Assembly (NCBI GenBank): GCA_018992685.1
Contig: JACVGT010000016.1
Location: 1-38,597 of the forward strand
Length of the DNA: 38,597 nt
Source: Theionarchaea archaeon
Lineage (GTDB): Archaea; Methanobacteriota_B; Thermococci; Methanofastidiosales; SZ-28-30
Direction of reading: 5' to 3'
The notes under the pieces were generated by a model that saw only the letters and a list, made by a program, of their open reading frames with translations, made no database searches and was not told the DNA's origin. Position 1 is the first letter of the stretch. Each line of letters starts with the position of its first letter. Positions 187 through 38,425 of the stretch are shown here, in pieces. The position numbers and the translations under genes are program-made.

Positions 187-624
187 TTACCCATTTGATG
201 AGACGATTTCAGAGTACCCTTTTAGATTCTGCTCACTCCACTCCACAAGCTCTTTCTGAGCTTCTTGTGTGGCACCTTCAATAAACTCCTCGGGTACTTG
301 GTGGTGAAAGGGACACCGGAAAGACACAAAAAACGTAATCTGCCCATCAGAATAGTGGAATAGTAGAGGGTATATTTTACAGTCCAGGGGCTTAAAAGAG
401 TTGATTGAACACTTTCCATCCGTCCGCAAAAAGGTGCACTTCTCATCACGCAACTCCATGAGATATATCCACCCATTTTTGGAATGAAAACGTCTGGCAA
501 AAGGTTCCTTTACATGGAATTCTATCCTCAAGAAGTCTTTTTCCGAAAGAGCTATTCTCCCAAATTTCTCCGTCTTTCTGCAGCACTGCTGTCCACAAAC
601 TTGGCATACGTCTCCCATCTCCAT
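187..624 (-). CDS. YkgJ-type cysteine-cluster protein
   Basis: The protein of about 145 residues has the cysteine layout of the Zn/Fe-chelating CxxCxxCC family (PF03692). It shows an N-terminal CQVCGQQCC, a central C-x-F-L-x3-DGKC-S-I followed by KPLDCKIYP, and a late FRCPFHH. Such proteins are thought to bind a metal or Fe-S cluster; their reaction is mostly unknown. It lies divergently from the ligase gene at 901. A TATA box at 656-663 places the transcript start at GTG 633. That GTG is in frame, but the ATG at 624 is preceded by AGGTGAT with ideal spacing, so I prefer 624; GTG 633 and ATG 618 remain possible. No frame damage is seen. Confidence 0.82.
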   Translation of the reverse strand: MEMGDVCQVCGQQCCRKTEKFGRIALSEKDFLRIEFHVKEPFARRFHSKNGWIYLMELRDEKCTFLRTDGKCSINSFKPLDCKIYPLLFHYSDGQITFFVSFRCPFHHQVPEEFIEGATQEAQKELVEWSEQNLKGYSEIVSSNG

Positions 625-655
625 GGAAATCACCTTGTCAGATTTCTCCGGGTTG

Positions 656-663
656 TTTTTATA
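656..663 (-). promoter_or_regulatory. TATA box of the YkgJ-type gene
   Basis: On the minus strand this reads TATAAAAA. Its centre (659.5) lies 26 nt from GTG 633, giving a predicted mRNA that begins GTGATTTCC and then the ATG at 624. Confidence 0.6.
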
Positions 664-863
664 GGTTGTGTTGATGACGCTCCATGGGTCAGCACCAGAT
701 AGTGCTCTTCACAAAATACTGAAAGGTCAGTCTGGCTCCTCCAGTCTTCTGAGCAGTCTAAGAAGTCAACCTGGATGACTGCACCAACAGTCAAGGGGAA
801 GAGCTATAATTGCCACAAAAGGAAATTTGCATCTCCAATCCTGTTATCACAGGACAACAAATG

Positions 864-871
864 TTTATAAG
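864..871 (+). promoter_or_regulatory. TATA box of the ligase-like gene at 901
   Basis: TTTATAAG centred at 867.5 predicts transcription from about 893, where the sequence is GTGATGTG followed directly by ATG 901. The leader would be only 8 nt. Confidence 0.6.
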
Positions 872-900
872 GCATCTGCAGCCTGTTGGTACGTGATGTG

Positions 901-2193
901 ATGCTACTGAGACAATTGTATTTTCTTGGAAAGGTCATGAGAAATCAATGGAAATCACCTGGAGAGTTGAAAAAGCTCCAAGAAAAGAAATTGCGGTCTC
1001 TCCTTAGGTACGCATATGATAGAAATGAGTTCTATCACCGTTTGTTACGAAAGCATGATTTGAGCCCTTCAGACTTTCGAACCGTGGACGATATCCGGAG
1101 GTTCCCTTCAGTCAACAAAGCCGTCATGATGGAGAATTATCCCCAAGCTATTGTCTCGAAAGGATTTGAGGTCTCAGACTGCATTCATGCTGCTACCTCT
1201 GGATCTACTGGCCAGAACCTCAACCTGGTCTATGATGTTCGCACCTACGAGTATTACATGGCAATAACTTACCGGAATTTCGCTGCCCTGGGATACATGC
1301 CATGGCACAAATTAGCGTACACTCGTTATGAATCGTTCAAGATTGAAAATCAGTTTTACGAGAAACTTGGGATTACAAGACGCCAATTCATTTCAGTGTT
1401 TTCGCCTCCTGAAAAGCAAATTGCAATGCTGAAAGCATTTTACCCTGATTCAGTCACCGCATATCCCTCAATAATGATTGAATGGGCTAAGATGCTGAAA
1501 AATGAGGGGGAAACTCTGGAAATACCGGTATTCATCCGATCTGAAGCAGAGATTCTGACCAAAGAGGCACGCTCGCTCATTGAAGACGTCTTTCAATCCC
1601 CCATCTATGAGGAATATGGGTCTGCTGAGTTTGTGCAGTTTGCCTGGGAGTGTAAGGATAGAGGATACCACATATCCTCTGACAGCGTCCTCCTGGAATT
1701 CCTGGACGACGAAGGAGAACCTGTAGCTCCCGGCGAAGAAGGGGAGATCGTTGTGACCTCCTTGGAGGCTCACGCTATGCCCTTCATCCGGTACAAGATA
1801 AACGACAGAGGTGTTCCGCTGGATGACGTGTGCTCCTGTGGCAGAGGACTACCATTGATGAAGCTTGTGGTGGGAAGAAATGATGATTTCGTCTGGCTTC
1901 CAAATGGGGATCGAGTCAATCCTCGTATGATTATCCCCTACTTCGAGCTGGCACCTGGCGTGAAAGAATTCAGGATTGTTCAGGAAAGAGAAGACTGGAT
2001 TCGGATTGAAATCATCACTGGATCAGAATTCACAGATGAAGTGCAAAAAAAGTTGACACATGAACTTTATACTGTTATCAAAGATCACACAGTAGAGATT
2101 CAGTTCGACTTCTGCGAGGAAATTCCCCGCGGACGACACAACAGGCCACGCCCCATCCTATCCAGGGTTAGGAAAGATGCCAGCAGTGTCTAG
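901..2193 (+). CDS. AMP-forming ligase, coenzyme F390 synthetase/phenylacetate-CoA ligase-like
   Basis: A full-length (430 aa) member of the ANL adenylate-forming group, PaaK/FtsA (F390 synthetase) branch. These enzymes activate a carboxylate or coenzyme F420 with ATP. Visible motifs are the phosphate-binding SGSTGQNL (about residues 100-107), YGSAEF (239-244), a CSCGRGLPL segment (from 311) and GRNDDFVWLPNG (325-336) at the hinge to the C-terminal subdomain. The CxCGR motif is typical of this branch. The start is ATG 901, eight bases after the predicted transcript start; TTG 886 would lie upstream of that start. The next gene, at 2307, is a paralog. The substrate cannot be read from sequence, and no phenylacetate-catabolism gene is adjacent. 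Confidence 0.85.
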   Translation: MLLRQLYFLGKVMRNQWKSPGELKKLQEKKLRSLLRYAYDRNEFYHRLLRKHDLSPSDFRTVDDIRRFPSVNKAVMMENYPQAIVSKGFEVSDCIHAATSGSTGQNLNLVYDVRTYEYYMAITYRNFAALGYMPWHKLAYTRYESFKIENQFYEKLGITRRQFISVFSPPEKQIAMLKAFYPDSVTAYPSIMIEWAKMLKNEGETLEIPVFIRSEAEILTKEARSLIEDVFQSPIYEEYGSAEFVQFAWECKDRGYHISSDSVLLEFLDDEGEPVAPGEEGEIVVTSLEAHAMPFIRYKINDRGVPLDDVCSCGRGLPLMKLVVGRNDDFVWLPNGDRVNPRMIIPYFELAPGVKEFRIVQEREDWIRIEIITGSEFTDEVQKKLTHELYTVIKDHTVEIQFDFCEEIPRGRHNRPRPILSRVRKDASSV

Positions 2194-2306
2194 ACCCGAA
2201 CCCTCTTCCAGCGGTCTTCCAGCGACGTCTCTCTACCCGTATCCTGAAAGACGGGGGAGATCATGGAGAGACTGAAAGAAGATCCATACCACTGTGGAGG
2301 TGATTC

Positions 2307-3581
2307 ATGATGTGGAAACCACTGGTTAATGTCATGAAAATATATGGAAATCAGTTTGCGGCTCCTGAAACCCTGAAAAGAATTCAGGAAAAAAGAATCA
2401 GGGTTCTGGTGCATTTTGCCTACAACAATTCTCCACTCTACCATCGAAAATTCAGGGATGCGGGCATTACCCCAGAGGACATTGTAGGACTCGAGGATAT
2501 GTACAAAATACCTCTCATAACAAAAGAAGAAATAAGAACCGTTTTTCCTCAAGGAATTGTTGCACCCGGGTTTTCCCGAGAAAATTGCACAGTGAAAACG
2601 ACATCTGGCACCTCAGGCAGTGTCTTCACCATGTTGTATGACAGGGAGGCTGAAGCTTATTTCTCAGCAATATCCTACCGGGATCACCTGGCACAAGGAC
2701 TGCGACCCTGGCACAAGTTCTTTGTTTTGCAGCACGACCCCGCACAGTTAAACCGACCGTCGAGAACTATACTGCAACGCGTGAAGGGGGTATCTGGAAT
2801 CCTTCCTGAAGAAGAACTCGTGAAAGAGGCCAGAGCCTTTCAGCCCGATTTCATGGGGGGACACCCGTCGGCCTACGTGGCTATGGCGACAGTTGTCAAG
2901 AACAACGAGATCAAGGACTTGAATCCTCAGGCAGTACTGCTGGGTGGTGAAGTGGCATATCCTTCCTACAGGAAGTACATTGAAAAGATCTTCGAATGTC
3001 GAACATCCAATAAGTACGGGTCATATGAAACCCATTCCATTGCCTGGGAGTGTCAGCACCTCGGGATGCATATTAATGCAGATTCAGTACTCGTGGAATT
3101 TCTCAAAAGAGGAGAACCTGTAGCCCCAGGGGAGCGAGGTGAGGTTGTTGTCACCAACTTGTGGAACAGGGCCATGCCCTTGATCAGGTATAGAATGGGG
3201 GATATTGGCATACCTTCAGAAGAGTCCTGTTCTTGTGGAAGGAGTCTCCCTCTGATGAAAGATCTTGAAGGGCGGGCAGATGATTTCATCGTTTTGCCTT
3301 CCGGGAGAGCAGTGCCCCCCACCCGTTTGATACCTCCCTTTTTCCTCACTCCTCATGTGGGTCAATTTAAGATGATCCAGGAAACAAAATCCTGGATTCG
3401 TATTCAGATTGTGCCTCGAGAAACCTTGCCTGAAGAGGAGGAAAACGCGCTGCTCCAGCAGATCAGAAATGTATTCCAGGAGCCAGTGGACATTGAGGTG
3501 GAAAGAGTGGAAAAAATCCAGCAAGAAGGGAGGGGAAAGTTTAAGGCTGTCATTTCGAAAGTTGGAATAAGCCTAGCCTAG
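2307..3581 (+). CDS. AMP-forming ligase, coenzyme F390 synthetase/phenylacetate-CoA ligase-like (paralog)
   Basis: A 424-residue paralog of the preceding gene with collinear motifs: SGTSG (residues 100-104), KYGSYE (236-241), a CSCGRSLPLMK segment (308 on) and GRADDFIVLPSGR (322-334). The two proteins share whole stretches, such as IAWECQ/FAWECK and EPVAPGE. The start ATG is preceded by a full Shine-Dalgarno sequence, GGAGGTGAT, overlapping the end of a 15-codon reading frame (2263-2310). That suggests translation from a long mRNA rather than from its own leaderless promoter. It probably forms an operon with the 901 gene (113-bp gap). Its 3' end meets the opposing kinase gene in one shared CTAG. 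The substrate is unknown. Confidence 0.85.
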   Translation: MMWKPLVNVMKIYGNQFAAPETLKRIQEKRIRVLVHFAYNNSPLYHRKFRDAGITPEDIVGLEDMYKIPLITKEEIRTVFPQGIVAPGFSRENCTVKTTSGTSGSVFTMLYDREAEAYFSAISYRDHLAQGLRPWHKFFVLQHDPAQLNRPSRTILQRVKGVSGILPEEELVKEARAFQPDFMGGHPSAYVAMATVVKNNEIKDLNPQAVLLGGEVAYPSYRKYIEKIFECRTSNKYGSYETHSIAWECQHLGMHINADSVLVEFLKRGEPVAPGERGEVVVTNLWNRAMPLIRYRMGDIGIPSEESCSCGRSLPLMKDLEGRADDFIVLPSGRAVPPTRLIPPFFLTPHVGQFKMIQETKSWIRIQIVPRETLPEEEENALLQQIRNVFQEPVDIEVERVEKIQQEGRGKFKAVISKVGISLA

Positions 3582-4162
3582 TCGTGCTTGGAACTAACCG
3601 ACTGAGGATACAGCATGTTGTAGACCATTTGGGCACCTTCTTCAGGTGTTGTGCTATCTGTATCAATGACGAGTTCAGGGTGTTCGGGCTCTTCATACGC
3701 CACATCTACTCCAATGACCTCACCCACATCACTTTTTTCAACTGGCTTTCCCTCTTCCAGGTTTCTTTTCCTTTCAATTGCCTTCTTGTACATGTTACTG
3801 ACGATAAGGTTGTCCTCCCGTTGAGACTCTCGGTCCATGCACACATCTAATGGACACTTCACATAAACCTCGTAGAAGGAAGAAATCTGTTCCCGTGCTC
3901 TATCCCTCCATTTCCTGCGGTGAGCTGTGGCATCTACCACCACGTTGATACCGTGGACTGAAAGCAGGGAAGCCATGACTCCCACAGCATTGTAGACAAG
4001 ATCCCGCTCTTGTTCAGTGTAGTGTGGATCTGGCACCAGCCTCCTTCTGAACTCGTCCAAGCGGAGCACTTCAACTGGAACACAAAGAAGGTTCACGAGT
4101 GCCCGTGCAATGCCAGTCTTCCCTGATCCCGGAAGTCCTGTGAGCCATACCACCCAAGTCAT
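3578..4162 (-). CDS. APS-kinase-like P-loop kinase
   Basis: 194 residues in the adenylylsulfate kinase (CysC) / zeta-type kinase fold. Features are a Walker A GLPGSGKT at residues 9-16, RLDEFRRRL (the helix after the nucleoside-binding strand), VVDATAHRRKWRD, and the CysC-like YEVYVKCPLDVCMDRE followed by GVDVAYEEPEHPELVIDT. Canonical CysC converts APS to PAPS. Here the Walker A differs from the usual GLSGAGKST, and the region before MYKKA carries an insertion. No sulfate-assimilation gene lies nearby, so another small substrate is possible. Its ATG overlaps the stop of the APH-fold gene (ATGA), which implies translational coupling; it is the third gene of the SAH-hydrolase operon. Confidence 0.78.
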   Translation of the reverse strand: MTWVVWLTGLPGSGKTGIARALVNLLCVPVEVLRLDEFRRRLVPDPHYTEQERDLVYNAVGVMASLLSVHGINVVVDATAHRRKWRDRAREQISSFYEVYVKCPLDVCMDRESQREDNLIVSNMYKKAIERKRNLEEGKPVEKSDVGEVIGVDVAYEEPEHPELVIDTDSTTPEEGAQMVYNMLYPQSVSSKHD

Positions 4163-5229
4163 GGTCGATCTCTGAGGTACTCAGGGATTCTCTGCGGGGA
4201 GAAGGCATCATCTTCCATAACGTTCATCGCAAAATTAAACAACTTCCTTCTGGTAAGATTGGTGACATCAGGGTAAAACAGAGGATTACATACCACCGTC
4301 ACCCGGAATGCATAGAAGGGTGCCATAACTTCCCACATTTCCTGGTCCTTGGTCTGAGAAAAGTACCTTTCAAGAAACAAGTCAAATAGTTCTTTAAATG
4401 GCCCTTCAAACCGATCCTCGTTCATGCGCAGCCCATAGAAAAGGTAGTTGATGCTGAGACAGGTCACATCATCTGCAGGTTCTCCGTAAATTCCTCTGCT
4501 TCTGTCCAGGAGGATGAAATCAGTGGCGCCATCACTTTCCTTCCACCAGATATTCCCTGGATGATAGTCCCCGTGAACCACACACAGCCTGTGGGATTTG
4601 TTCTTGTTCTTTCCCCACCAGGATACAGCCAGGCGGACGAATTCGGTCATTTCCTCGGGTGTCGTGAACTCCACTTCTGGATAGGTGTCTATGACTCCCA
4701 TGATGCACTCCCCGTTCCCTACAGTGTCTCTGATCCTCCGTTTGTATAATCCAGGGTTCGAATGTTTCTCCTTGTGAATTTCTACCAGATAATCAGCCAG
4801 TTTTACACACTTCTCGCGATCCTCGTCAGTCAATTTTCTTTCCTTCTTGATTCTTTCCAGATCCACAAAATAGTTCTCTCCCTGTGCTTCCTCCATGACA
4901 ATGAAAAACTCCTGACAATCCCCCAGTGATACCATTTTCTTTCCCGTTCCCACCACATCAATTGACCGCACGTGTTTGGGCAGGAGGTTATACGATCTGT
5001 TTGCGAGAAGAAACACCTGGGCACGGTCTGAGAAGTAGTCGTGACCAAATCCTTCAGGGAACAGTGTCTTGATTATGATGTTCTGCCGCTTCCACTGCCA
5101 TTCGAAAGCAACAGAATACCCCATTCCGTGTACTCCTTCGCCCATAGGGTTCAGTGCAATAAAAGTACTTCCTGGATACTTCTTGGAAAGGTACGCTTCT
5201 ATCCACTCTCTGCTTATTTCTATTCCCAT
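4159..5229 (-). CDS. APH-fold phosphotransferase
   Basis: A 356-residue aminoglycoside-phosphotransferase/choline-kinase superfamily protein. It has the N-lobe strand NIIIKTLF with the ATP-binding lysine, the catalytic VVHGDYHPGNIWW (HGDYHPGN at about 219-226) and a metal-binding FILLDRSRGIYGEPADDV (Asp near 242). Such enzymes phosphorylate small hydroxylated compounds. The start is ATG 5229, because AGGTG overlapping the upstream stop sits at the right distance; GTG 5238, immediately after that stop, is the alternative. It lies between the SAH hydrolase (9 bp upstream) and the P-loop kinase (4-bp overlap). The substrate is not known. In other organisms APH-like and P-loop kinase domains are found fused, which the overlap here resembles. 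Confidence 0.8.
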   Translation of the reverse strand: MGIEISREWIEAYLSKKYPGSTFIALNPMGEGVHGMGYSVAFEWQWKRQNIIIKTLFPEGFGHDYFSDRAQVFLLANRSYNLLPKHVRSIDVVGTGKKMVSLGDCQEFFIVMEEAQGENYFVDLERIKKERKLTDEDREKCVKLADYLVEIHKEKHSNPGLYKRRIRDTVGNGECIMGVIDTYPEVEFTTPEEMTEFVRLAVSWWGKNKNKSHRLCVVHGDYHPGNIWWKESDGATDFILLDRSRGIYGEPADDVTCLSINYLFYGLRMNEDRFEGPFKELFDLFLERYFSQTKDQEMWEVMAPFYAFRVTVVCNPLFYPDVTNLTRRKLFNFAMNVMEDDAFSPQRIPEYLRDRP

Positions 5230-5238
5230 GCCAGACAC

Positions 5239-6495
5239 CTAGGTACCTGCCTTCCAGCTTTTCAAGTATGCGTCCTGCTCTGGAGTGAGAACATCAATTT
5301 CCACGTCCATAGATTCAAGTTTCAGTGCTGCAATGCGATTGTCGATTTCTGCAGGGACCATGTACACCCGGGGTTCAAGCGTTTGACCCTTTTCAACAAT
5401 AAACTGAGCAGAGAGGGCCTGGTTGGCAAAACTCATGTCCATTACAATGGAGGGATGCCCTTCTGCGCAAGCGAGGTTGACCAGTCTTCCCTCTCCGAGA
5501 AGATACAAGGATCTACCATCCTTCAAGACGTATTCCTCAAGGTTTGGTCGTACAACTCGTTTTTCTCCGGCCAGCCGCTCCAGTGCAGGTATCTCGACCT
5601 CTACGTCAAAGTGACCTGTATTGCACAGGAGTGAACCATCCTTCATTACCATCATGTGCTCTTCCCGAATGACATTCTTGTCTCCTGTGGCTGTGATAAA
5701 GATGTCACCAATCCGGGCGGCTTCCTTCATGGGCATGACTGAGAACCCGTCCATGGTTGCCTCAAGAGCTTTCAAAGGGTCAACCTCAGTAACCACAACG
5801 TTGGACCCCATGCCACGAGCTCGCAAGGCCACACCTCTGCCGCACCACCCATACCCTGCAACCACGAACTTCTTTCCAGCTAAGAGCACATTGGTAGTCC
5901 TTAAAATGCCATCCAGAGAACTCTGGCCTGTCCCATATCTGTTGTCAAAGAAGTGTTTGGTCTTGGCATCGTTGACGGCAATGATGGGATACTTGAGAGC
6001 ACCCTCTTTCTCCATGTTCCTGAACCTGATTATACCTGTGGTAGTTTCTTCAGTTCCCGCTCTCACGCCATCCCGCAACTCAGTCCTGTCTGTGTGCAGA
6101 GTAGACACCAGGTCCCCACCATCGTCCATGGTGATGGTAGGCTTGAAATCAAGCACCTGGTGCAGATGCTCGTAGTAGGTCTTGCTATCTTCTCCCCGGA
6201 CTGCAAACACTGGTATGTCAAAATCTTTCACCAGAGAAGCTGCCACATCATCCTGGGTGGACAGGGGGTTTGAAGCACAGAGGGCAACGACAGCTCCTCC
6301 TGCCTTCAAGGTTCGCATGAGGTTGGCAGTCTCTGATGTAACATGCAGGCAAGCAGCAATAGTCATGCCCTTCAGCGGCAAGTCCTTTTGGAATTGTTGC
6401 CGGATAAGGTTAATTACAGGCATCTGACGGTCAGCCCATTCAATCTTCAGCTTTCCTTGAGGAGCCAGCGACTCCTCACACACTGCATAGTCCAC
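5239..6495 (-). CDS. ahcY: S-adenosylhomocysteine hydrolase
   Basis: Reversibly cleaves S-adenosylhomocysteine to adenosine and homocysteine in the cytoplasm, relieving product inhibition of methyltransferases. The protein is about 418 aa. It has the substrate/catalytic segment [18 protein letters not shown] (about 175-192), the NAD-binding GYGWCGRG (from 214), CNTGHFD, and [14 protein letters not shown] near the end. Start choice: the TATA box at 6527-6534 predicts transcription from GTG 6504. A GTG at 6495, just after GTGATTT, gives an N-terminus ([13 protein letters not shown]) that matches family length. ATG 6510 and 6522 lie upstream of the predicted transcript start. It is the first gene of an operon with two kinase-fold genes. 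Confidence 0.95.
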
Positions 6496-6526
6496 ACAAA
6501 TCACCTGCATAGGAGAACTCATTTGA

Positions 6527-6534
6527 TTATATAA
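6527..6534 (-). promoter_or_regulatory. TATA box of the ahcY operon
   Basis: TTATATAA on the minus strand, centred 26 nt from GTG 6504. It argues against ATG 6522, which would lie only 5 nt downstream of the box and outside the mRNA. Confidence 0.6.
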
Positions 6535-6623
6535 GGCTTATGCTTCGGCAATTTAACTGGAATAATCTACCATTTTGAAACTAGAACCGTCGATGTATGC
6601 TAAGAAGGTGTATAAACACGCAA

Positions 6624-7970: not shown

Positions 7971-7978
7971 TTTATAAG
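7971..7978 (+). promoter_or_regulatory. TATA box of the metallophosphoesterase gene
   Basis: TTTATAAG centred at 7974.5 predicts a transcript from 8001. The mRNA would begin GTGAAAAA and continue into ATG 8009. Confidence 0.6.
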
Positions 7979-8008
7979 TTATTCCCCAACTGTAGGAGCG
8001 GTGAAAAA

Positions 8009-8959
8009 ATGGCGAGAATGTTCTTTTCAACAGACGCGCACGGTAGCACAGCAATCTGGAAGAAATGGGTGAATGTGCCTGAATTTCACAAGGCAGATAT
8101 GCTTCTTTTGTGTGGAGATCTAACTGGAAAAGCGCTGATTCCTCTCATTCAGGAATCTGACGGTACTTACAAAACACACTATTACGGCAGAGGATGGCAT
8201 CTGACCTCGGAAAAAGAGGTAGTGGAAATGGAGAACCGTCTTGCCGATTCTGGATGTTATCCTTTCAGAACCACCCAAGAAGAAGTGGGAGAGATGAGAA
8301 GCAACCCCAAAATAGTGGACGAAATGATGAATGATGCAATGGCTCAGAGGATTGACGAATGGCTGAGCTTTCTGGTGGAAAAGGTTGACACCAGCAAGGT
8401 GCAGGTCATGGCCATGCCTGGGAATGATGATGAATTTCACATTGACAAAATCATTAGATCCTATGAGGACAGAGGCGTCATTTGGTGCCTGGACCAGGTT
8501 GTGGAAGTTGGGGGATTCGAGACCATCAGTCTGGAGTACGTGAATCCCACGCCATGGGATACCCCCAGAGAATATAAAGAGAAAGAGATGAAGAAAAGAA
8601 TCGATCAACTTGCAAAGAAACTTAATGACCCCTCAAAATCGATTTTTAATTTCCACTGCCCACCCTACAATACGCATCTTGATCTGGCTCCCAAGCTGGA
8701 CAAGACGTTGAGGCCAGTGGTCACTGCAGGAACTGTTGAGATGATTCATGTGGGCTCAACCGCCATAAGAGAGGCTGAAGAGCAGTATCAGCCCATGATG
8801 GGACTGCACGGTCATATCCATGAGAGCTATGCATCTGATAAGATCAAAAACTCTGTTGTGGTGAATCCTGGATCTGAGTACGGAGAAGGAATCTTGAGAG
8901 GGTTTATTATTGAGTTTTCTGAAGAAGGAGTAGATAGATACTGGAAAGTCGAGGGATAA
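8009..8959 (+). CDS. Calcineurin-like metallophosphoesterase
   Basis: A 316-residue metallophosphoesterase with the ordered dimetal motifs: STDAHGS (D-x-H) at the N-terminus, LLCGDLTG, AMPGNDDEFH (a GNHD variant with GND), FNFHCPPYNTH and MGLHGHIHES. Family members hydrolyse phosphomonoesters, phosphodiesters or nucleotides; the substrate here is unknown. The start is ATG 8009 after GCGGTGAAAAA, 8 nt into the predicted mRNA; upstream in-frame codons lie before the promoter. The next gene begins 2 bases after the stop, so the two form an operon. That partner looks like a nucleotidyltransferase, which suggests a pair adding and removing a nucleotide or phosphate group, though this is inference. 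Confidence 0.85.
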   Translation: MARMFFSTDAHGSTAIWKKWVNVPEFHKADMLLLCGDLTGKALIPLIQESDGTYKTHYYGRGWHLTSEKEVVEMENRLADSGCYPFRTTQEEVGEMRSNPKIVDEMMNDAMAQRIDEWLSFLVEKVDTSKVQVMAMPGNDDEFHIDKIIRSYEDRGVIWCLDQVVEVGGFETISLEYVNPTPWDTPREYKEKEMKKRIDQLAKKLNDPSKSIFNFHCPPYNTHLDLAPKLDKTLRPVVTAGTVEMIHVGSTAIREAEEQYQPMMGLHGHIHESYASDKIKNSVVVNPGSEYGEGILRGFIIEFSEEGVDRYWKVEG

Positions 8960-8961
8960 GT

Positions 8962-23409: not shown

Positions 23410-24054
23410 CTAATCCAGACGATACTCTTCCTTTTCCTGCAGGATGACAACCCGGGTTGAAGATCCGGCTTCAACCCTCTTCTTGAACTCTGTGGTATCC
23501 TTTCCCCACGTGTGCATGGGTATCGCAATTCCTGGATTGATCGCCAGCGCAGCTTCGGCACCCTCAACAACATCCATGGTATAGGTATCCCCTGTGGGAA
23601 GAAGGGCTACGTCCACTGTCCCGAGTTCCTTCATCTCTGGAATGAAATCTGTATCCCCGGCATGATAGATAGTTTTTCCTTCAACTGAAATGAGGTATCC
23701 AACCCCCATTCCCTTGGGATGATACGGAGTTCCTGGAGATCTGAATCGTTTGTAATTATAGGCCTGAACAGCCTTCACCGTTATTCCATTTATCGTCATG
23801 GATTCTCCTGGCTTCAGGGGAGTGATGTCCTTAATCTTTGATCTACATTCATCGGGAGCGATTATCACAGTACCGGAGTGCAGAACACGGCTGATTTTGG
23901 CGGGATCGCAGTGGTCAGTATGAGAATGGGTTATCACTATGATGTCTGCTTTCCCTACAGGATCACTGTATTCTTCAAGATCAGTGTAGATGATCTTGCC
24001 TCCTCCCTTTATCTGAAAGGCAGCATGTGCCAACAACATTATTGATACACTCAT
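23410..24054 (-). CDS. UPF0173-type metal-dependent hydrolase (metallo-beta-lactamase fold)
   Basis: 214 residues. LLAHAAFQIKGGGKIIYTDL begins the fold. The metal site is ITHSHTDHCDP (HxHxDH), followed by IYHAGDTDFIPEM (motif 4 Asp) and AIPMHTWGKD (last His). UPF0173 proteins are hydrolases of unknown substrate, common in archaea. The start is ATG 24054. A TATA box at 24086-24093 predicts a transcript beginning GTGTTCATA and then this ATG; GTG 24063 and ATG 24039 are alternatives. It is a single gene with no obvious operon partner. Confidence 0.85.
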   Translation of the reverse strand: MSVSIMLLAHAAFQIKGGGKIIYTDLEEYSDPVGKADIIVITHSHTDHCDPAKISRVLHSGTVIIAPDECRSKIKDITPLKPGESMTINGITVKAVQAYNYKRFRSPGTPYHPKGMGVGYLISVEGKTIYHAGDTDFIPEMKELGTVDVALLPTGDTYTMDVVEGAEAALAINPGIAIPMHTWGKDTTEFKKRVEAGSSTRVVILQEKEEYRLD

Positions 24055-24085
24055 TATGAACACCGTGCTTCTATTGGATTGCCAC

Positions 24086-24093
24086 TTTATCTA
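24086..24093 (-). promoter_or_regulatory. TATA box of the UPF0173 gene
   Basis: TAGATAAA on the minus strand, centred 26 nt from GTG 24063; the start codon follows 9 nt later. Confidence 0.5.
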
Positions 24094-29918: not shown

Positions 29919-30152
29919 CTAGAATTGAACAACTATGGCTGTGGTTGTATCTATGACTCCATCTATGTAGTGAATTTTTTGGACGATTGTCTTGGTCAAC
30001 TGGCTAAGATCTTCTGCTTCTATCCGAGCTATCGCATCGTAAGGTCCTGTTACCACGTCCGCCTTGACAACTCCTTCCATCTGCTCGAGCTCTTCCAGAA
30101 CTTCCTTAACCTTGCCAATAGCTATTGTTATGAGGATATACGCTGATACCAT
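29919..30152 (-). CDS. Stand-alone Lrp/AsnC effector-binding domain protein
   Basis: 77 residues consisting only of the alpha-beta RAM (AsnC ligand-binding) domain: AYILITIAIGKVKEVLEELEQMEGVVKADVVTGPYDAIARIEAED, ending TTAIVVQF. No helix-turn-helix is present, so it cannot bind DNA alone. Such proteins may sense amino acids or regulate partner proteins. The transcript is predicted to begin GTGTAGAC and then the ATG. A second one of the same type is at 32682. Confidence 0.85.
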   Translation of the reverse strand: MVSAYILITIAIGKVKEVLEELEQMEGVVKADVVTGPYDAIARIEAEDLSQLTKTIVQKIHYIDGVIDTTTAIVVQF

Positions 30153-30182
30153 GTCTACACCAAACCTCCTTTTTTCTGTCCC

Positions 30183-30190
30183 TTTTTAAA
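30183..30190 (-). promoter_or_regulatory. TATA box of the first Lrp-type domain gene
   Basis: TTTAAAAA on the minus strand, centred 26 nt from GTG 30160; the ATG follows the 8-base leader GTGTAGAC. Confidence 0.55.
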
Positions 30191-31384: not shown

Positions 31385-31404
31385 GAGTACTGTTTGTGAA
31401 CATG

Positions 31405-31411
31405 CTTATAT
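31405..31411 (-). promoter_or_regulatory. TATA box of the AbrB-like gene
   Basis: ATATAAG on the minus strand, centred about 25 nt from ATG 31384; a leaderless transcript is expected. Confidence 0.5.
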
Positions 31412-31530
31412 GGTTTTGCGTTTTTGACGTGAGGGCATGCAATCTGCGGGGCAGACAAGAGTCAGCCGAATCAGGGCGGGAAATCCTCACTGGCAGGAGC
31501 GAGTCATGATGAAGATTGAAAGAGGAAACC

Positions 31531-31537
31531 TTTTTAT
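31531..31537 (+). promoter_or_regulatory. TATA box of the aminotransferase gene
   Basis: TTTTTAT centred 26-27 nt before ATG 31561; a leaderless transcript is expected. Confidence 0.5.
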
Positions 31538-31560
31538 GAACTGGGTTAGTACGACACTAC

Positions 31561-32631
31561 ATGGATGAAGACGTCTCTTTAATGATTCCAGGGCCCACAT
31601 TTCTGCACCCCAGGGTGCTGCGGGCCATGTCCAAGCCCCTCATGCCTCACAGAGAGAAGTGGTTTTCTGACCTTTTTGTAGAACAGGCAGAACGGATGAA
31701 AAAAGTCTATCAGACTGAAAATGATCTCTTCATTTTCTCTGGATCAGGTACATCTTCCATGGATGCCGCAGTATCGAATATTATGAGACCTGGAGATAAA
31801 GTGCTGTGCCTGGTCTCCGGCAAATTCTCTGAACGGTTCTTTGAGATTGTGGAAGCTCATGGAGGTATACCCGTCGTACTGAACTGTGAATGGGGGTCTC
31901 CTTTAGATCCTGAAAAGGTAAAGGAGGCTCTGACGCCTGACATTAGGGCTGTGACCATGGTCCACAATGAATCCTCTACGGGAGTGAGAAATGCTGTCAA
32001 ACCCATTGCAGATATTGTGAAAGACAGTACTGCTCCCCTGATTGTGGACTGTATTTCCTCCATGGGGGGAGATGACATCAGAGTAGACGAGTGGGGAATC
32101 GATCTGTGTATTTCAGGCTCCCAGAAGTGCCTGGCGGTCCCTCCCGGGCTTTCTTTCCTCTCAGTCAGTGGAAAAGCGTGGAATATTATCAATGAGAGAC
32201 CGGGATACTGTTACTACCTCAATGTGAAGAAATACAAAGAGGACAAGTACCGGGCACCCTACACCCAGTCCATCACCCTGACCTACGCACTGAAAGAAGC
32301 TCTGGACATTCTCTTTGAAGAAGGGCTGCCCCAGAGGATTGAAAGGCACAAGAGGCTGGCCAAGATGACACGATCTGGACTCAGGGATCTGGGACTGACT
32401 ATATTTCCCAAATCAGACGACATATGTTCACGCACGGTCACTGCTTTCAACGCACCCGACCACAAGTCCGAAAAGGACATACGGGATACTCTCAAGAACG
32501 AGTATAACATCGTCATAGCAGGCGGACAAGCTCATCTCAAGGGCAAGATCATGAGAATCGGGCACATGGGGAACTGCAGAGAAAGGGATATCATTGGCAC
32601 ACTGGCCTGCCTGGAAAAGGCCATGAAATAA
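31561..32631 (+). CDS. Class V aminotransferase (serine-pyruvate/alanine-glyoxylate type)
   Basis: 356 residues. IPGPTFLHPRVL is the family's N-terminus, FSGSGTSSMDAAV forms the phosphate site, HNESSTGVRN and LIVDCISSMGGDDIRVDEWGIDL precede the PLP lysine in SGSQKCLAVPPGLSF (Lys189), and IVIAGGQAHLKGKIMRIGHMG closes the fold. Family members transfer an amino group from serine, alanine or aspartate to a 2-oxo acid (glyoxylate or pyruvate). Archaeal members are often of broad use; the exact donor cannot be set. A poly-T stretch follows the stop. Confidence 0.9.
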   Translation: MDEDVSLMIPGPTFLHPRVLRAMSKPLMPHREKWFSDLFVEQAERMKKVYQTENDLFIFSGSGTSSMDAAVSNIMRPGDKVLCLVSGKFSERFFEIVEAHGGIPVVLNCEWGSPLDPEKVKEALTPDIRAVTMVHNESSTGVRNAVKPIADIVKDSTAPLIVDCISSMGGDDIRVDEWGIDLCISGSQKCLAVPPGLSFLSVSGKAWNIINERPGYCYYLNVKKYKEDKYRAPYTQSITLTYALKEALDILFEEGLPQRIERHKRLAKMTRSGLRDLGLTIFPKSDDICSRTVTAFNAPDHKSEKDIRDTLKNEYNIVIAGGQAHLKGKIMRIGHMGNCRERDIIGTLACLEKAMK

Positions 32632-32639
32632 TTCCTGTT

Positions 32640-32652
32640 CTTTATTTTTTTT
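32640..32652 (+). terminator. Poly-T terminator of the aminotransferase gene
   Basis: A run of twelve T bases interrupted by one A (CTTTATTTTTTTT) starts about 10 nt after the stop of the aminotransferase gene, as expected for archaeal intrinsic termination. Confidence 0.6.
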
Positions 32653-32681
32653 CTGTCTCTGGATAACGCACTCTCACTCTT

Positions 32682-32915
32682 CTACCACGCTCCCACTGCA
32701 ACCAGAGTCATGGTGTGCTGTATTCCTTCAAGAGAACGCAGTTTGTATATGAAATCATCGAGAACCCTGAGATCCTCAATCTCCAGAGTCAGATGCATGT
32801 CATATTCACCATACACAACATGACATTCCTTGACTTCTTTTTCCTGTTTGAGTACTTCTGCTACTTTCTCTTCCTTTCCGGGAACCGTATTGAGGAGTAC
32901 AAACGCCAATACCAT
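32682..32915 (-). CDS. Stand-alone Lrp/AsnC effector-binding domain protein (second)
   Basis: 77 residues of the RAM/AsnC ligand-binding domain: VLAFVLLNTVPGKEEKVAEVLKQEKEVKECHVVYGEYDMHLTLEIEDL, ending MTLVAVGAW. There is no DNA-binding domain. The frame extends to 32987, but ATG 32915 matches the family start. The TATA box at 32946-32953 predicts an mRNA starting GTGATAGC and then this ATG. It resembles the 29919 gene in size and layout, so the two may be homologous effectors for different partners. Confidence 0.85.
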   Translation of the reverse strand: MVLAFVLLNTVPGKEEKVAEVLKQEKEVKECHVVYGEYDMHLTLEIEDLRVLDDFIYKLRSLEGIQHTMTLVAVGAW

Positions 32916-32945
32916 GCTATCACCAGTATCCATAAAAGAGCAGTC

Positions 32946-32953
32946 CTTATAAT
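32946..32953 (-). promoter_or_regulatory. TATA box of the second Lrp-type domain gene
   Basis: ATTATAAG on the minus strand, centred 26 nt from GTG 32923, with the start codon 8 nt further. Confidence 0.6.
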
Positions 32954-33109
32954 GTCTTCGGTCTACTTTGTGGTCGTACTCTGACAAGAAAGGTGGAATC
33001 GTATGTAGTGGTCTCCTGGCGACTGCAACAGAATGGGATAGGAACGTTGGAGTTCATGCTCTCAGAGGGTCGATACAGTATATGTTCTTTTTTCTTGCTC
33101 TTCGTAAAG

Positions 33110-33117
33110 TTTATAAG
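33110..33117 (+). promoter_or_regulatory. TATA box of the initiator tRNA gene
   Basis: TTTATAAG centred 26 nt before the first base of the tRNA at 33140, so the tRNA would have almost no 5' leader. Confidence 0.6.
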
Positions 33118-33139
33118 GAAAGAATTGAACAGGAATCAA

Positions 33140-33217
33140 AGCGGGGTGGGGCAGCTAGGAGTGCCCGGCGGGCTCATAACCCGCAGGTCTGTGGTTCAAA
33201 TCCACACCCCGCTACCA
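33140..33217 (+). tRNA. Initiator tRNA-Met (anticodon CAT)
   Basis: A full cloverleaf: acceptor AGCGGGG/CCCCGCT (33140-33146 with 33207-33213), D arm GGGC/GCCC, anticodon stem GCGGG/CCCGC with loop CTCATAA (anticodon 33175-33177), and T arm TGTGG/CCACA with loop TTCAAAT. The discriminator base is A33214. The first pair A1-U72 and three successive G-C pairs next to the anticodon loop mark it as an initiator rather than an elongator tRNA-Met. CCA is encoded at 33215-33217. No intron is present. Confidence 0.97.
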
Positions 33218-33297
33218 GAGGCTTTGTCCAGATCGTGGTATAGCAACTGCAACTATTTCAGACTTGGGAAAAGCACAAGCTCCCCGGTCAGGGAATC

Positions 33298-33305
33298 TTT
33301 TTATT
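33298..33305 (+). promoter_or_regulatory. TATA box of the M24 peptidase gene
   Basis: TTTTTATT centred about 26 nt before ATG 33327; it supports that start over ATG 33312 and the longer frame from 33264. Confidence 0.5.
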
Positions 33306-33326
33306 CTGAGGATGTTGAATCATGGT

Positions 33327-34445
33327 ATGAAGTCAAAAGTTCAGCAAGCTCGTTCCATTCTTAGAGAAAAGGACATTCAGTGCTGGATAATACTGGAGAG
33401 GGAACAGCGAGACAAATCCATAGAGCTCCTGCTGGGACAGGGATTTATAGGTGAATCTGCCTTCATTCTCACAGGGGAAAAGACGATAGCCGTTGTAGCA
33501 TCATATGATAGGGAGAGAGTACAGAACATGGAAGTACACACCTACACCAGAGGGATACGAGATGTGCTTCCAGGGATTCTAAGAGAAATGAACATTTCCA
33601 GAATGTACATGAACTTCTCTGAACATGATCATACGGTGGATTCATTGACATATGGGTTATTCTTGAAGTTCTCACAAATCCTCAAAGAAATACACTACAA
33701 AGGCGAGATCCTGTCTTCTGAAGTGTTTCTGGAAGATCTGAGATCAGTCAAAACAAGGGAAGAACGAGACAGGATCAGAGAAGCGGTACGAATAACTGAA
33801 GAGATCTTTGATGAACTGCCCACCATGGTACAAGAGGGGATAACAGAGAGAGAATTGATGCAGAAAATGGTGGATCTGACCAGGAGAAAAGGATGTGAAT
33901 TAGCGTGGAATGATCCTGCAATCAGTTTTGGATTGGACACTGAACTGGGTCACAGGATGCCATCTGACCGGAAGCTGAAAAGAAATGAGAGTATACACAT
34001 AGATTTCGGAGTGAAGTATGAAGGATACTGCTCTGATTTGCAGAGAGTATTCTTTTTCGGAGGAGAACCTCCACAGAAGATGGTACGTGCTTTTGAGACT
34101 ATCCGGAGAGCGCAGCAAGAGAGTATGGAGGCCATAAAGCCTGGCAAGAAGGGATATGAGATTGATGCCGTGGCCCGGACGATCATTACAGAGAGTGGAT
34201 ATCCGGAGTACAACCACGGACTGGGACATCAGATCGGAAGAGAGGTCCATGATGGTGGATGCATACTGGGTCCTCTGTGGGAGAGATATGAGAAGAGTGC
34301 TGTCAAAGAGATCAAGCAGGGGAATGTTTTCACTATTGAGCCCTCAATCACGGGTGAGGTTAATATGGGGCTTGAGGACGATATTGTGGTTGAAAAAAAG
34401 GCAGAACTGTTATCCCATCCCCAGAAGGAGATTATTATGATCTGA
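33327..34445 (+). CDS. M24 family Xaa-Pro aminopeptidase-like protein
   Basis: 372 residues in two domains: an N-terminal creatinase-type domain and a C-terminal pita-bread domain. The metal ligands are present: HIDFGVKYEGYCSDLQRVFF (two Asp), GLGHQIGREVHD (His), FTIEPSI (Glu) and GLEDDIVV (Glu). It should be a dinuclear-metal aminopeptidase for Xaa-Pro peptides or a related dipeptidase/hydrolase. ATG 33327 is placed by the TATA box. Its end overlaps a 52-codon frame on the other strand by 11 bases. Confidence 0.88.
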   Translation: MKSKVQQARSILREKDIQCWIILEREQRDKSIELLLGQGFIGESAFILTGEKTIAVVASYDRERVQNMEVHTYTRGIRDVLPGILREMNISRMYMNFSEHDHTVDSLTYGLFLKFSQILKEIHYKGEILSSEVFLEDLRSVKTREERDRIREAVRITEEIFDELPTMVQEGITERELMQKMVDLTRRKGCELAWNDPAISFGLDTELGHRMPSDRKLKRNESIHIDFGVKYEGYCSDLQRVFFFGGEPPQKMVRAFETIRRAQQESMEAIKPGKKGYEIDAVARTIITESGYPEYNHGLGHQIGREVHDGGCILGPLWERYEKSAVKEIKQGNVFTIEPSITGEVNMGLEDDIVVEKKAELLSHPQKEIIMI

Positions 34446-34593
34446 TTCTCGTAACTGTCCTGTCAATTAACTTCCCATAATACGAGTGATCAAAAATCTG
34501 ATATCCCTCAGCAGATCTCCTCTGCTCCCAGTAATCATTGTCCTCAGAAAAAACGACGGTGACTCCAGTAATGTGAGAGTAGAAAAGCCCCAT
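34435..34593 (-). CDS. Possible 52-residue protein downstream of the histone
   Basis: An ATG frame of 52 codons starts 4 bases after the histone stop and ends inside the 3' end of the M24 gene. Its sequence (beginning MGLFYSHITGVTVVFSEDN, ending GKLIDRTVTRIRS) has the mixed, aromatic composition of a folded protein rather than of a random frame. The Shine-Dalgarno is weak (TGAAG). It would be co-transcribed with the histone. No family is recognised. Confidence 0.45.
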   Translation of the reverse strand: MGLFYSHITGVTVVFSEDNDYWEQRRSAEGYQIFDHSYYGKLIDRTVTRIRS

Positions 34594-34597
34594 GAGA

Positions 34598-34795
34598 CTA
34601 CTTCAGTGCCAGCTTAACATCTTCAGCATTTATTGTCCTGCGTCCAGCATGCTGAGCGAATTCTACAGCCAGTTTCGAGATTTCAATTGCTTCTTCCTCA
34701 AGTATGCCAGCAAGCTCCTTGGCGGCATCTGCAGAAACTCGCTCTGCACCGGCCTTCCGCATTATCTTGTCAATGGGTCTGTGAGACAAAGGCAT
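34598..34795 (-). CDS. Archaeal histone
   Basis: 65 residues, the classic minimal histone fold. It starts LSHRPIDKIMRKAGAERVSADAAKELAGILEE (helix 1 and the start of helix 2) and ends HAGRRTINAEDVKLALK with the R-T loop motif. It binds and wraps DNA as a dimer and assembles into chains. The leader of about 25 nt holds AAGGTGAT before the ATG, so unlike many neighbours this gene has a normal Shine-Dalgarno. TATA CCTTATAAGG is at 34841-34850 and is itself a palindrome. Confidence 0.95.
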   Translation of the reverse strand: MPLSHRPIDKIMRKAGAERVSADAAKELAGILEEEAIEISKLAVEFAQHAGRRTINAEDVKLALK

Positions 34796-34840
34796 TCACA
34801 TATCACCTTCATAGATCGCTTGATCACCTTCGTGAGTTTC

Positions 34841-34850
34841 CCTTATAAGG
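34841..34850 (-). promoter_or_regulatory. TATA box of the histone gene
   Basis: CCTTATAAGG, the same sequence on both strands; the transcript is predicted from about 34820, leaving a 25-nt leader. Confidence 0.5.
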
Positions 34851-34865
34851 GTTTCCCTGGAGAAA

Positions 34866-34874
34866 CTATATATA
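34866..34874 (+). promoter_or_regulatory. TATA box for the TPR gene
   Basis: CTATATATA, giving a transcript from about 34896 and a leader near 100 nt. A second AT-rich element, ATTTTATC (34919-34926), is closer to the gene and could be used instead. Confidence 0.4.
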
Positions 34875-34995
34875 TCCCCTATTCCAACCAATCCATAAGA
34901 ACAATTACTTGAACCGGAATTTTATCATGCAGTCTTGAATATGACACAAAATTCATGCAAGAAAGGAAGAAAGCAAAGATCCTGAGGGAAATCGC

Positions 34996-37503
34996 ATGGA
35001 TGCAGAGGAATACCTTGAGAAGGGCAATGCCTTTTACAGGCAAAGAGAATACGAAAAAGCACTCAAAGCTTATAATAAGGCTATAAACCTGAAACCTGGA
35101 TTTGCCAAAGCATGGAATAACAAAGGATTCGTTCTTCGAGTTCTCAAGAGATATGATGAGGCACTCAAAGCCTACAACACGGCTATAAACCTAGATCCTG
35201 AATTTACTGAGGCATGGCAAAACAAAGGTACTTTTCTCTACAGTCTCGGAAGACATGAGGAGGCACTGGAAGCGTATGATAGGGCTATAGAACTGGATCC
35301 AAGACATACGAAGGCTTGGAATGGCAAAGTACTCGTTCTCCGTAGTCGTGGAAGACATAATGAGGCATTGAAAGTCCTCGACACGGCTATCAGACTGAAT
35401 CCAGAGAATGCCGATCTTTGGAATGGAAAAGGTATGGTTCTCGCTGACCGTGAGAGATATGATGAGGCACTGGAAGCGTATGATAGGGCTATAGAACTGA
35501 ATCCCATATTCGTTGAAGCCTGGTGCAACAAGGGGACAGCCCTTCAAACTCTTGAAAGATATGATGAGGCACTGGAAGCGTATGATAGGGCTATAGAACT
35601 GAATCCCATATTCGTTGAAGCCTGGTGCAACAAGGGGACAGCCCTTCAAACTCTTGAAAGATATGAGGAAGCACTGGAAGTCCTCGACACGGCTATCAGA
35701 CTGAATCCAGAGAATGCCGATCTTTGGAACGGAAAAGGCATGGTCTTTGAGGACCTCGGAATGTATGATGAGGCGCTGGAAGCGTATGATAGAGCTATAG
35801 AACTGGATCCCATATTCGTTGAAGCCTGGTGCAACAAGGGGACAGCCCTTCAAACTCTTGAAAGATATGAGGAGGCACTGGAAGCGTATGATAGAGCTAT
35901 AGAACTGGATCCCATATTCGTTGAAGCCTGGTACAACAAAGGTACGGCTTATGAAGACCTCGGAATGTATGATGAGGCACTGGAAGCGTATGATAGGGCT
36001 ATAGAACTGGAACCAGAATTGATTGAAGCTCAGGTTAACAGAGGTATGGTCTTTCAGAACCTCGAAATGTATGATGAGGCACTGGAAGCGTATGATAGAG
36101 CTATAGAACTTAAACCAGAGCACATTCAGGCTTGGATTAACAAAGGATTCGTCCTTCGAATCCTCAAGAGATACGATGAGGCCTTACGGGCATATGAAAG
36201 AGCAATCAAACTGAACCCCGACGTTGTCATTTCTTGGAATGGAAAGGGTGTGGTCTTGAACGATCTTGGGAGATTTGATGAGGCATTAAGGGCATATGAC
36301 AAAGCCATCAAAAAGGATGGCGGGCATCCAATAGTCTTGTACAACAAAGGCGTTGTCCTCAATACCCTTGGGAGATATGATAAAGCACTGGAAGCGTATG
36401 ATAGGGCCGTGAAACTAAACCCCGGGAATGCTACTGCTTGGAATGGAAAGGGCGTTGTCTTTCGCAACCTCAAGAGATATGATGAAGCATTGGGTGCATT
36501 TGAGAAGGCTATTCGGCTTTTCGAAAAGAACGATGATCAAAGTCCAGAAAAGGCTTTTCCTCATGCAAATCTGGGAGAACTCTTCCTAGCTCACGGAGAT
36601 TTCTGGAATGCCCGAAAGCAGGCAAACAAGGCACTTGAGATCGACAGAGAGAATTCTCTCGCCCTATTGATAAGGGGAAGAATTGAGCTTGAAGATGGAA
36701 AGTATGACTGTGCAGCTGACTTTTTTGAAGACTCAATATGCTCCAGCTTAGGTGATCCCACTCCTCTTATTTGGACCTCCTATGCCAAATACCTCAAAGC
36801 GGAGTCTTCCTTCAAGCCAGAGGAAATGGCATATAAAGAAGAAATCCTTTTCATTATAAGAGAGCTAGAGAGATCAAATGTGATTTGTAAAGAGTATAGG
36901 AAAAGAGAGCTGCAGATCTGTACTTTGTATCTCTTGGGTTATTTCTACTATAAGAATGGGGACATTTTCACAGCAAAAGAAAAACTTGTAGAATGTATCA
37001 AGCTCGAATCCAGGATCCAGAAACTCAAAGAGCTCGTAAAGTCGAAATTCAGGAAAGATGAGTTCAGGGGACTAATTACGCCAAAGTCCCCTATAGAAAG
37101 GAGAGCACGTGAACTCCTTAACACTATCTGGAGATACAAGATTAGACCCTCATGGTGGGATTGGTGGCTATCCTCCCCATTCAATTGCTGGAAAAAAAGG
37201 ATTTTATTCATTCTTTTCTTGCTCCCGATTTTTTCAGTTTTGCTCCGTTCACTTGTCCCTAGCCATCCCATGATTTCATACTATCTTGGAAACATCCCTG
37301 TCATGAACAAAGATAATTGGACCATCTACTTTGCCATAATCTCATTCTTCCTCGTTTTTCTCCTATTGCCAAGTATCGAAAAAGTAAAAGTCCAGGAAGT
37401 CGAAGCAGAATTAGGTTCCCCACCCAGCTTTGAAGTCTTTCTTTCACCTCCAATGATGGAGAACTATCTGACTCCGGGAAGACAGGGGAATAATGTCACT
37501 TGA
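34996..37503 (+). CDS. Large TPR-repeat protein with C-terminal membrane segments
   Basis: 835 residues. Fifteen 34-residue tetratricopeptide repeats occupy residues 1-510 (core AW-NKG-L-RYDEALEAYDRAIEL-P), followed by about two degenerate ones. A further helical region contains YKEEILFIIRELERSN and LYLLGYFYYKNGDIFTAKEKL. Two hydrophobic helices close it: ILFILFLLPIFSVLLRSLV (about 735-753) and IYFAIISFFLVFLLLPS (about 776-792). The repeats should form a superhelical scaffold on the cytoplasmic side that binds a protein partner. The ATG follows GAGGGAAATCGC. The repeat DNA is unusually homogeneous in its middle. The partner is unknown. Confidence 0.88.
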   Translation: MDAEEYLEKGNAFYRQREYEKALKAYNKAINLKPGFAKAWNNKGFVLRVLKRYDEALKAYNTAINLDPEFTEAWQNKGTFLYSLGRHEEALEAYDRAIELDPRHTKAWNGKVLVLRSRGRHNEALKVLDTAIRLNPENADLWNGKGMVLADRERYDEALEAYDRAIELNPIFVEAWCNKGTALQTLERYDEALEAYDRAIELNPIFVEAWCNKGTALQTLERYEEALEVLDTAIRLNPENADLWNGKGMVFEDLGMYDEALEAYDRAIELDPIFVEAWCNKGTALQTLERYEEALEAYDRAIELDPIFVEAWYNKGTAYEDLGMYDEALEAYDRAIELEPELIEAQVNRGMVFQNLEMYDEALEAYDRAIELKPEHIQAWINKGFVLRILKRYDEALRAYERAIKLNPDVVISWNGKGVVLNDLGRFDEALRAYDKAIKKDGGHPIVLYNKGVVLNTLGRYDKALEAYDRAVKLNPGNATAWNGKGVVFRNLKRYDEALGAFEKAIRLFEKNDDQSPEKAFPHANLGELFLAHGDFWNARKQANKALEIDRENSLALLIRGRIELEDGKYDCAADFFEDSICSSLGDPTPLIWTSYAKYLKAESSFKPEEMAYKEEILFIIRELERSNVICKEYRKRELQICTLYLLGYFYYKNGDIFTAKEKLVECIKLESRIQKLKELVKSKFRKDEFRGLITPKSPIERRARELLNTIWRYKIRPSWWDWWLSSPFNCWKKRILFILFLLPIFSVLLRSLVPSHPMISYYLGNIPVMNKDNWTIYFAIISFFLVFLLLPSIEKVKVQEVEAELGSPPSFEVFLSPPMMENYLTPGRQGNNVT
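35455..35658 (+). repeat. Perfect 102-bp tandem duplication inside the TPR gene
   Basis: 35455-35556 and 35557-35658 are identical base for base (one TPR each, 34 codons). Near-identical blocks continue to about 36100. A longer unit also repeats with a 306-bp period: the block encoding VLDTAIRLNPENADLWNGKG occurs at 35374 and again at 35680. Confidence 0.9.
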
Positions 37504-37519
37504 TCACTTAGAAACATTA

Positions 37520-38395
37520 TCATTGCCTCAGACTTGTGAGCTGTGCACTCACGTCCCACAGATTCTTCCACACCTCTCTATCATAGGATTTCTCAGAAGA
37601 TTTCACCTCACCCGCTCGCTCATCAAAATATCTACCTGATACGCCCTCCATTTCAGGCGCTGTGACAAGGTGAACATATGTCTTTGCCATCTCCTCAGGT
37701 GTTATTCCAAACGACCTTTTCATCCTGTATGCGTAGCGCATATGCCAGGGCAGATCTCCTGTACGGTCCAGATCTACCTTCACATTCGGAACCCGTATAC
37801 AGTTCACTGAAACACCAGTTCCTTCTAACCTGCGAGCCAGTTCATAGGTGAACATGATCTGAGCCAATTTGGAGTGATAGTATGCATGAGAATAGTTGAA
37901 CTTCTTCTGGCCATTCAGATTGTCGAATTCAATGGCCAGCCATGGATGGGTTATGAGCCCTTTCGATGCAATATTGACAATGCGGGAGGGTGCACTTCCT
38001 TTCAGAATGTCCAGCAGCAAATTCGTCAGCAGAAAAGGACCCAGATGGTTGGTGGCGAAGATAACTTCTATTCCATCTTCAGTGGAGACGGGTTTTTTCA
38101 GAGTATAGTCAAAATTCGCAGCATTATTGATCAAGCTGTGAAGATGATCATACGAACTGCTGAAAGTCTTCACAAGCTGTCGTATGGACTTCTGCGAGGA
38201 AAGATCTGCCAATAATAGATCAACACGATCATTGCCACTGTTCTTCCTGATCTCGGACAGAGCAGTCTGTCCCCGTGATTTGTTTCGGCAAACCATGACA
38301 ACGGTCATTCCCAATTGGGCAAGCTGCAGAGCTGCTTGCTTACCGATTCCTGAATTGGCGCCTGTGATCATGCACACGTTCCTTGTGAACTCCAT
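37520..38395 (-). CDS. Short-chain dehydrogenase/reductase (retinol dehydrogenase-like)
   Basis: About 291 residues. The SDR motifs are MITGANSGIGKQ (NAD(P) loop), LLADLSSQ, INNAANF, VNIASKGL (catalytic Ser) and YYHSKLAQIMF (Y-x3-K). The set and the length resemble the retinol dehydrogenase/WW-oxidoreductase group. A basic Arg follows the first strand (VCRNKSRG), which favours NADPH. The substrate is unknown. The start is ATG 38395. The TATA box at 38426-38433 predicts transcription from GTG 38404, 9 bases earlier and in frame, so the GTG is the alternative start. Its 3' end lies 16 bp from the TPR gene end. Confidence 0.85.
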   Translation of the reverse strand: MEFTRNVCMITGANSGIGKQAALQLAQLGMTVVMVCRNKSRGQTALSEIRKNSGNDRVDLLLADLSSQKSIRQLVKTFSSSYDHLHSLINNAANFDYTLKKPVSTEDGIEVIFATNHLGPFLLTNLLLDILKGSAPSRIVNIASKGLITHPWLAIEFDNLNGQKKFNYSHAYYHSKLAQIMFTYELARRLEGTGVSVNCIRVPNVKVDLDRTGDLPWHMRYAYRMKRSFGITPEEMAKTYVHLVTAPEMEGVSGRYFDERAGEVKSSEKSYDREVWKNLWDVSAQLTSLRQ

Positions 38396-38425
38396 TTCAG
38401 TCACGGATACTGAAAGTCTTGGGTG

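Follow-up and report, generated by a model that had tools for sequence, protein, structure and literature searches.

Eight genes in a 38.6-kb archaeal contig very probably carry ordinary Shine-Dalgarno leaders of minimum length, in which the 5′ end of the predicted mRNA is a truncated Shine-Dalgarno motif. The contig, which was analysed over its whole length and is referred to as the window, belongs to an archaeal assembly of 3.03 Mb in 45 contigs. Judged by one protein, its best relative is the Theionarchaea archaeon genome SZ_28-30, with 76% identity. The arrangement is known in kind and is described here for a new lineage. An initial annotation had read the leaders as a GTG at the mRNA 5′ end followed by the start codon 8–9 nt later, and proposed a third initiation mode between leaderless and normal leaders. 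All eight sequences are present, and the start codon lies 8 or 9 nt after the GTG in each, as had been claimed:

625..634 (-), leader GGTGATTTCC: GTG 633, ATG 624, TATA 657-663; gene 187-624, CxxCxxCC-domain
893..900 (+), leader GTGATGTG: GTG 893, ATG 901, TATA 864-870; gene 901-2193, AMP-binding-like enzyme
6496..6505 (-), leader GGTGATTTGT: GTG 6504, start GTG 6495, TATA 6529-6535; ahcY (S-adenosylhomocysteine hydrolase), 5239-6495
8000..8008 (+), leader GGTGAAAAA: GTG 8001, ATG 8009, TATA 7971-7977; gene 8009-8959, calcineurin-like phosphoesterase
24055..24064 (-), leader GGTGTTCATA: GTG 24063, ATG 24054, weak TATA 24087-24093; gene 23410-24054, metallo-beta-lactamase-fold
30153..30161 (-), leader GGTGTAGAC: GTG 30160, ATG 30152, TATA 30184-30190; gene 29919-30152, 77-aa stand-alone Lrp/AsnC ligand-binding domain
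32916..32924 (-), leader GGTGATAGC: GTG 32923, ATG 32915, TATA 32947-32953; gene 32682-32915, second 77-aa Lrp/AsnC ligand-binding domain
38396..38404 (-), leader GTGACTGAA: GTG 38404, ATG 38395, TATA 38427-38433; gene 37520-38395, short-chain dehydrogenase

The product of gene 901 is AMP-binding-like, with a Pfam match under its cut-off. The two 77-aa Lrp/AsnC (RAM) domains have no DNA-binding domain, are located 2.5 kb apart and share the same minimal GGTG leader. The sole tRNA gene in the window is tRNA-Met (CAT) at 33140-33217 (+).

Genes were called with our own hexamer-based caller, which picks starts by coding score and a codon prior and is blind to Shine-Dalgarno and TATA signals. A BRE/TATA matrix was learned by EM from 1.14 Mb of the 3.03-Mb genome, the same portion to which the promoter and leader counts for this genome refer, and pattern searches were applied to the whole genome. 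In genes without a Shine-Dalgarno, which represent the leaderless class, the matrix is sharply placed at −36 ± 1 from the ATG, and the predicted +1 was therefore set to matrix offset 36. The +1 used throughout is thus a prediction from TATA with an uncertainty of about 1 nt. For comparison, 60 relative genomes were searched, all within the same order or class, including a same-genus relative (G001), two genomes of other families (G002 and G009) and a further member of the class (G039).

Relative to the matrix, the GTG is located at offset 36 in two of the eight genes (901 and 37520), at 37 in five and at 38 in one (ahcY). In six genes it is preceded by G, forming GGTG, and the mRNA probably begins with the leading G of that motif; the other two read GTGA. 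The claim that GTG itself forms the mRNA 5′ end therefore fits the predicted +1 only for genes 901 and 37520, whereas in the other six GGTG begins at or next to it. The GTG of gene 901 falls exactly on +1, follows a C and is out of frame, and that of gene 37520 falls on +1 in frame with the ATG. The distance from the predicted +1 to the chosen start codon is 8–10 nt in all eight genes, which is longer than the roughly 5 nt or less of a leaderless mRNA. The TATA box of gene 23410 scores only 4.9 bits in the matrix.

Among operon-internal genes, GGTG is found at −9 in 74 of 275 (1.14 Mb), where it is the mode and belongs to GGAGGTGA, which indicates that the 8–9 nt spacing of the initial annotation is Shine-Dalgarno spacing. 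The same position is also the mode in promoter genes (66/683). A Shine-Dalgarno match of at least 5 nt is present in each of the 16 genes whose predicted leader is 9 nt long, in contrast to 8 of 230 leaderless genes; a point against the Shine-Dalgarno reading is that 10 of the 13 genes with predicted leaders of 7–8 nt have no Shine-Dalgarno. In 32 of 95 genes, the predicted +1 and the 5′ edge of the Shine-Dalgarno are at most 1 nt apart, compared with a permutation mean of 19.8, and none of 5000 permutations reaches 32. The GGTG(A)/GTGA of the eight leaders is complementary to the 16S 3′ tail as read in G002, GATCACCTCCT; a pattern search of the window's own assembly did not recover its 16S 3′ end. 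GUGAU can pair with AUCAC of the 16S tail, as had been proposed, and the further suggestion that the mRNA 5′ end is itself the Shine-Dalgarno is probably correct.

With GGTG as the transcription start, the DNA just upstream of it would be useless as a Shine-Dalgarno and should carry the archaeal −1 pyrimidine, and this test is independent of the BRE/TATA matrix. A pyrimidine precedes GGTG in 13 of 20 genes of the +1 type versus 10 of 101 operon genes (p 5e-7); the corresponding counts for G039 are 15 of 16 versus 9 of 80 (p 1e-10). Both p-values are descriptive, since they assume independence among genes and the class definitions followed an initial inspection of the data. The upstream half of the motif is lost from genes of the +1 type, in which GA precedes GGTG in 2 of 20 cases versus 40 of 101 in operon genes. 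To judge from these sequences, the archaeal −1 pyrimidine has taken the place of an untranscribed half of the motif, which argues that the predicted 5′ ends are correct to about one base.

The geometry is conserved. Syntenic orthologues of seven of the eight genes are present in G001, and TATA, GTG and start codon are kept in 7/7; an orthologue of gene 37520 was not found in G001. Gene 187 keeps TATA and GGTG there (ggtggtttcc followed by ATG) with the leader GGTGGTTTCC instead of GGTGATTTCC, the leader of gene 901 is identical (cgtgatgtg, then ATG), and the orthologue of gene 32682 reads ggtgatagt before its ATG. The leader of gene 8009 is unchanged in G001, and G002 has TATA and ggtgatagc before the ATG, with a leader of 8. 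The orthologues of gene 23410 keep the geometry with TATA scores of 10.2 bits (G001) and 7.4 bits (G002). For gene 29919, the geometry is kept in G001, G002 and G009 and the leader letters vary (GGTGTAGAC, GGTGAAATAA, GGTGTCGAAT). Upstream of the predicted transcription start of ahcY are two in-frame ATGs, at 6522 and 6510 (6496-6522 (-)). G001 lacks the ATG at 6522 but has an identical AGGTGATTTGTGTGGAC. This favours the downstream start, and an automatic ahcY annotation from 6522 would be too long.

The eight cases were picked by eye in one window, and a choice among many promoters can bring common triplets into coincidence. The comparison with shuffled promoters, which the initial annotation had asked for, refutes this reading and leaves it with a negligible probability. 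GTG at offsets 36–38 with RTG 8 or 9 nt on occurs in 37 of 494 TATA-anchored promoters (1.14 Mb), far above the 2.4 ± 1.4 of dinucleotide shuffles, and G039 has the same pattern in 40 of 207 promoters versus 0.7 in shuffles. The gap between TATA and GGTG also peaks in the whole genome, where 15 of 45 matches to TTTATA-N(10-40)-GGTG-N5-ATG have gaps of 23–24 (2.9 expected if uniform, p about 4e-7), and across the class, where the matches summed over 61 genomes number about 400 at gap 22–24 versus 24 at 14–16 and about 52 at 33–35. Such positioning relative to TATA also fits a transcription initiator element at +1 that has no ribosome role, and a weak GAGAT motif at +2 to +6 has been noted in T. 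onnurineus (PMC5316973). However, GGTG at the predicted +1 (offsets 35–37) occurs 38 times over the three offsets with an in-frame start codon 7–10 nt on, and without such a start codon only 6 times, with about 4 expected; it is near background in that setting in both genomes, and genes with long leaders do not have GG at +1. The excess thus depends on a correctly spaced start codon, which rejects a general initiator sequence and renders an initiator role for GGTG highly improbable.

Two readings assign the leading GTG to the ribosome. The proposed third mode, in which a 5′-terminal GUG is recognised as such and aids initiation at the nearby start codon, is consistent with the out-of-frame GTG on +1 of gene 901, and E. 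coli mRNAs with a 5′-terminal AUG bind 70S and can influence the downstream gene (PMC4965119). The E. coli mRNAs resemble the eight in bearing a start-like triplet at the 5′ end before the true start, but they have a separate conventional leader with its own Shine-Dalgarno; the triplet of the eight lies inside the Shine-Dalgarno, and leaders of 8–10 nt leave no room for a second one. Moreover, +1 coincides in most cases with GGTG and not with GTG, and both motif and spacing equal the operon-internal Shine-Dalgarno. Out-of-frame GTGs that do not follow a G are no commoner than background at offset 36 (3), and a start-like signal at +1 is therefore rejected as a general explanation. The third mode is unsupported and very unlikely, and leaders with this motif and spacing are known from mapped Thermococcales starts. 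The four in-frame (9-nt) cases could also be leaderless GUG starts, with the GTG at +1 as the true start and the ATG three codons on as an internal methionine. GUG leaderless mRNAs exist in Saccharolobus (PMC11698992). Of 14 GTGs located exactly at offset 36 and not following a G, 11 are in frame and 3 out of frame, so that leaderless initiation at GUG is probable for some of the genes that have GTG at +1; gene 37520 fits this pattern and may be one of them. Against this reading of the set, the leading GTG is out of frame in four of the eight, namely the 8-nt cases, as the initial annotation had recognised, and genes 187, ahcY and 23410 have GGTG with the GTG at offset 37–38. The authors of the T. 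kodakarensis map moved such GTG starts to an ATG 2–3 codons on (PMC4247193). Leaderless GUG initiation is thus unlikely as the explanation, although the list, which consists mainly of short Shine-Dalgarno leaders, includes perhaps one or two leaderless GUG starts.

Short Shine-Dalgarno leaders, which we prefer as the explanation, have close counterparts. Mapped leaders have a median of 12 nt in T. onnurineus, or 11 nt for orthologues shared with T. kodakarensis (PMC5316973), 13 nt in P. furiosus (PMC6640164) and 16 nt in T. kodakarensis (PMC4247193). The T. kodakarensis map includes starts with GTG at the 5′ end: for 28 mRNAs that looked leaderless, other evidence spoke against this and the start was reassigned, and in most of these GTG was the annotated start codon, followed in frame by an ATG after 2 or 3 codons (PMC4247193), which is the 9-nt case of the initial annotation. 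The Thermococcales are related archaea with median leaders of 11–16 nt and the motif GGDGRD, and G039 shares the peak of GGTG at +1. A statement of the exact abutment of +1 and GGTG, quantified here, was not found in the Thermococcales start-site literature; searches for literature on Theionarchaea together with leaderless mRNAs, and on Pyrococcus transcription starts that overlap the ribosome binding site, also returned none. A review gives 8 nt as the likely minimum for Shine-Dalgarno pairing (PMC7531240). The alba mRNA of S. acidocaldarius has a 14-nt leader, GAUAGGUGGUUUAA, and removal of the motif abolished protein production (PMC11627041); it resembles the eight in that the leader is very short and a Shine-Dalgarno of the GGUG type lies close to its 5′ end, but has a few extra nucleotides ahead of the motif and comes from a different phylum. 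Archaeal leaderless mRNAs share the TATA-to-start machinery with the eight but lack a Shine-Dalgarno and have the start codon on +1, whereas in the eight it follows 8–10 nt on.

In contrast to the Thermococcales, leaderless genes dominate in this genome and short Shine-Dalgarno leaders are a minority. The initial annotation was correct that other genes here start transcription at the start codon: 230 genes have a predicted leader of −3 to +2 (1.14 Mb). G039 has mainly leaders of 9–14 nt, so that the short-leader class is the dominant one there, and the balance between leaderless and short leaders differs strongly within one class.

For the eight genes as Shine-Dalgarno leaders of minimum length, we propose the following sequence of events. 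The TATA box would direct transcription to start about 25–26 nt downstream from its centre, at the leading G of GGTGA or 1–2 nt ahead of it, such that the mRNA would begin GGUGAU-N3-4-AUG. The 5′-terminal GGUGAU would then pair with AUCACC in the tail of the 16S rRNA, and a spacing of 9 nt would bring the AUG into the P site, just as it does in operon-internal genes; translation of these mRNAs presumably requires the pairing. The shortness of the leaders may result from selection for short leaders in a mostly leaderless genome, limited by the need for a Shine-Dalgarno. It is also conceivable, if improbable, that GGTG at +1 is doubly selected, both as a pyrimidine-G transcription start and as a Shine-Dalgarno bearing the 5′ triphosphate, with the 30S subunit reading the anti-Shine-Dalgarno pairing plus the 5′ end. 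In Saccharolobus, the 5′ triphosphate stabilises leaderless complexes and not those with a model Shine-Dalgarno mRNA (PMC11698992). If true, a dual-role GGTG would be intermediate between the Shine-Dalgarno and leaderless modes and would offer evolution a plausible route from one to the other.

These findings leave the list of initiation modes unchanged. They are of practical use in start-codon annotation: at a TATA promoter with GGTG at +1, the RTG located 8–9 nt after the GTG is the most likely start. The genome-wide picture is of promoter and ribosome-binding signals packed together in an uncultivated relative of the Theionarchaea, in which leaderless mRNAs and mRNAs with a minimal Shine-Dalgarno leader form distinct length classes side by side.
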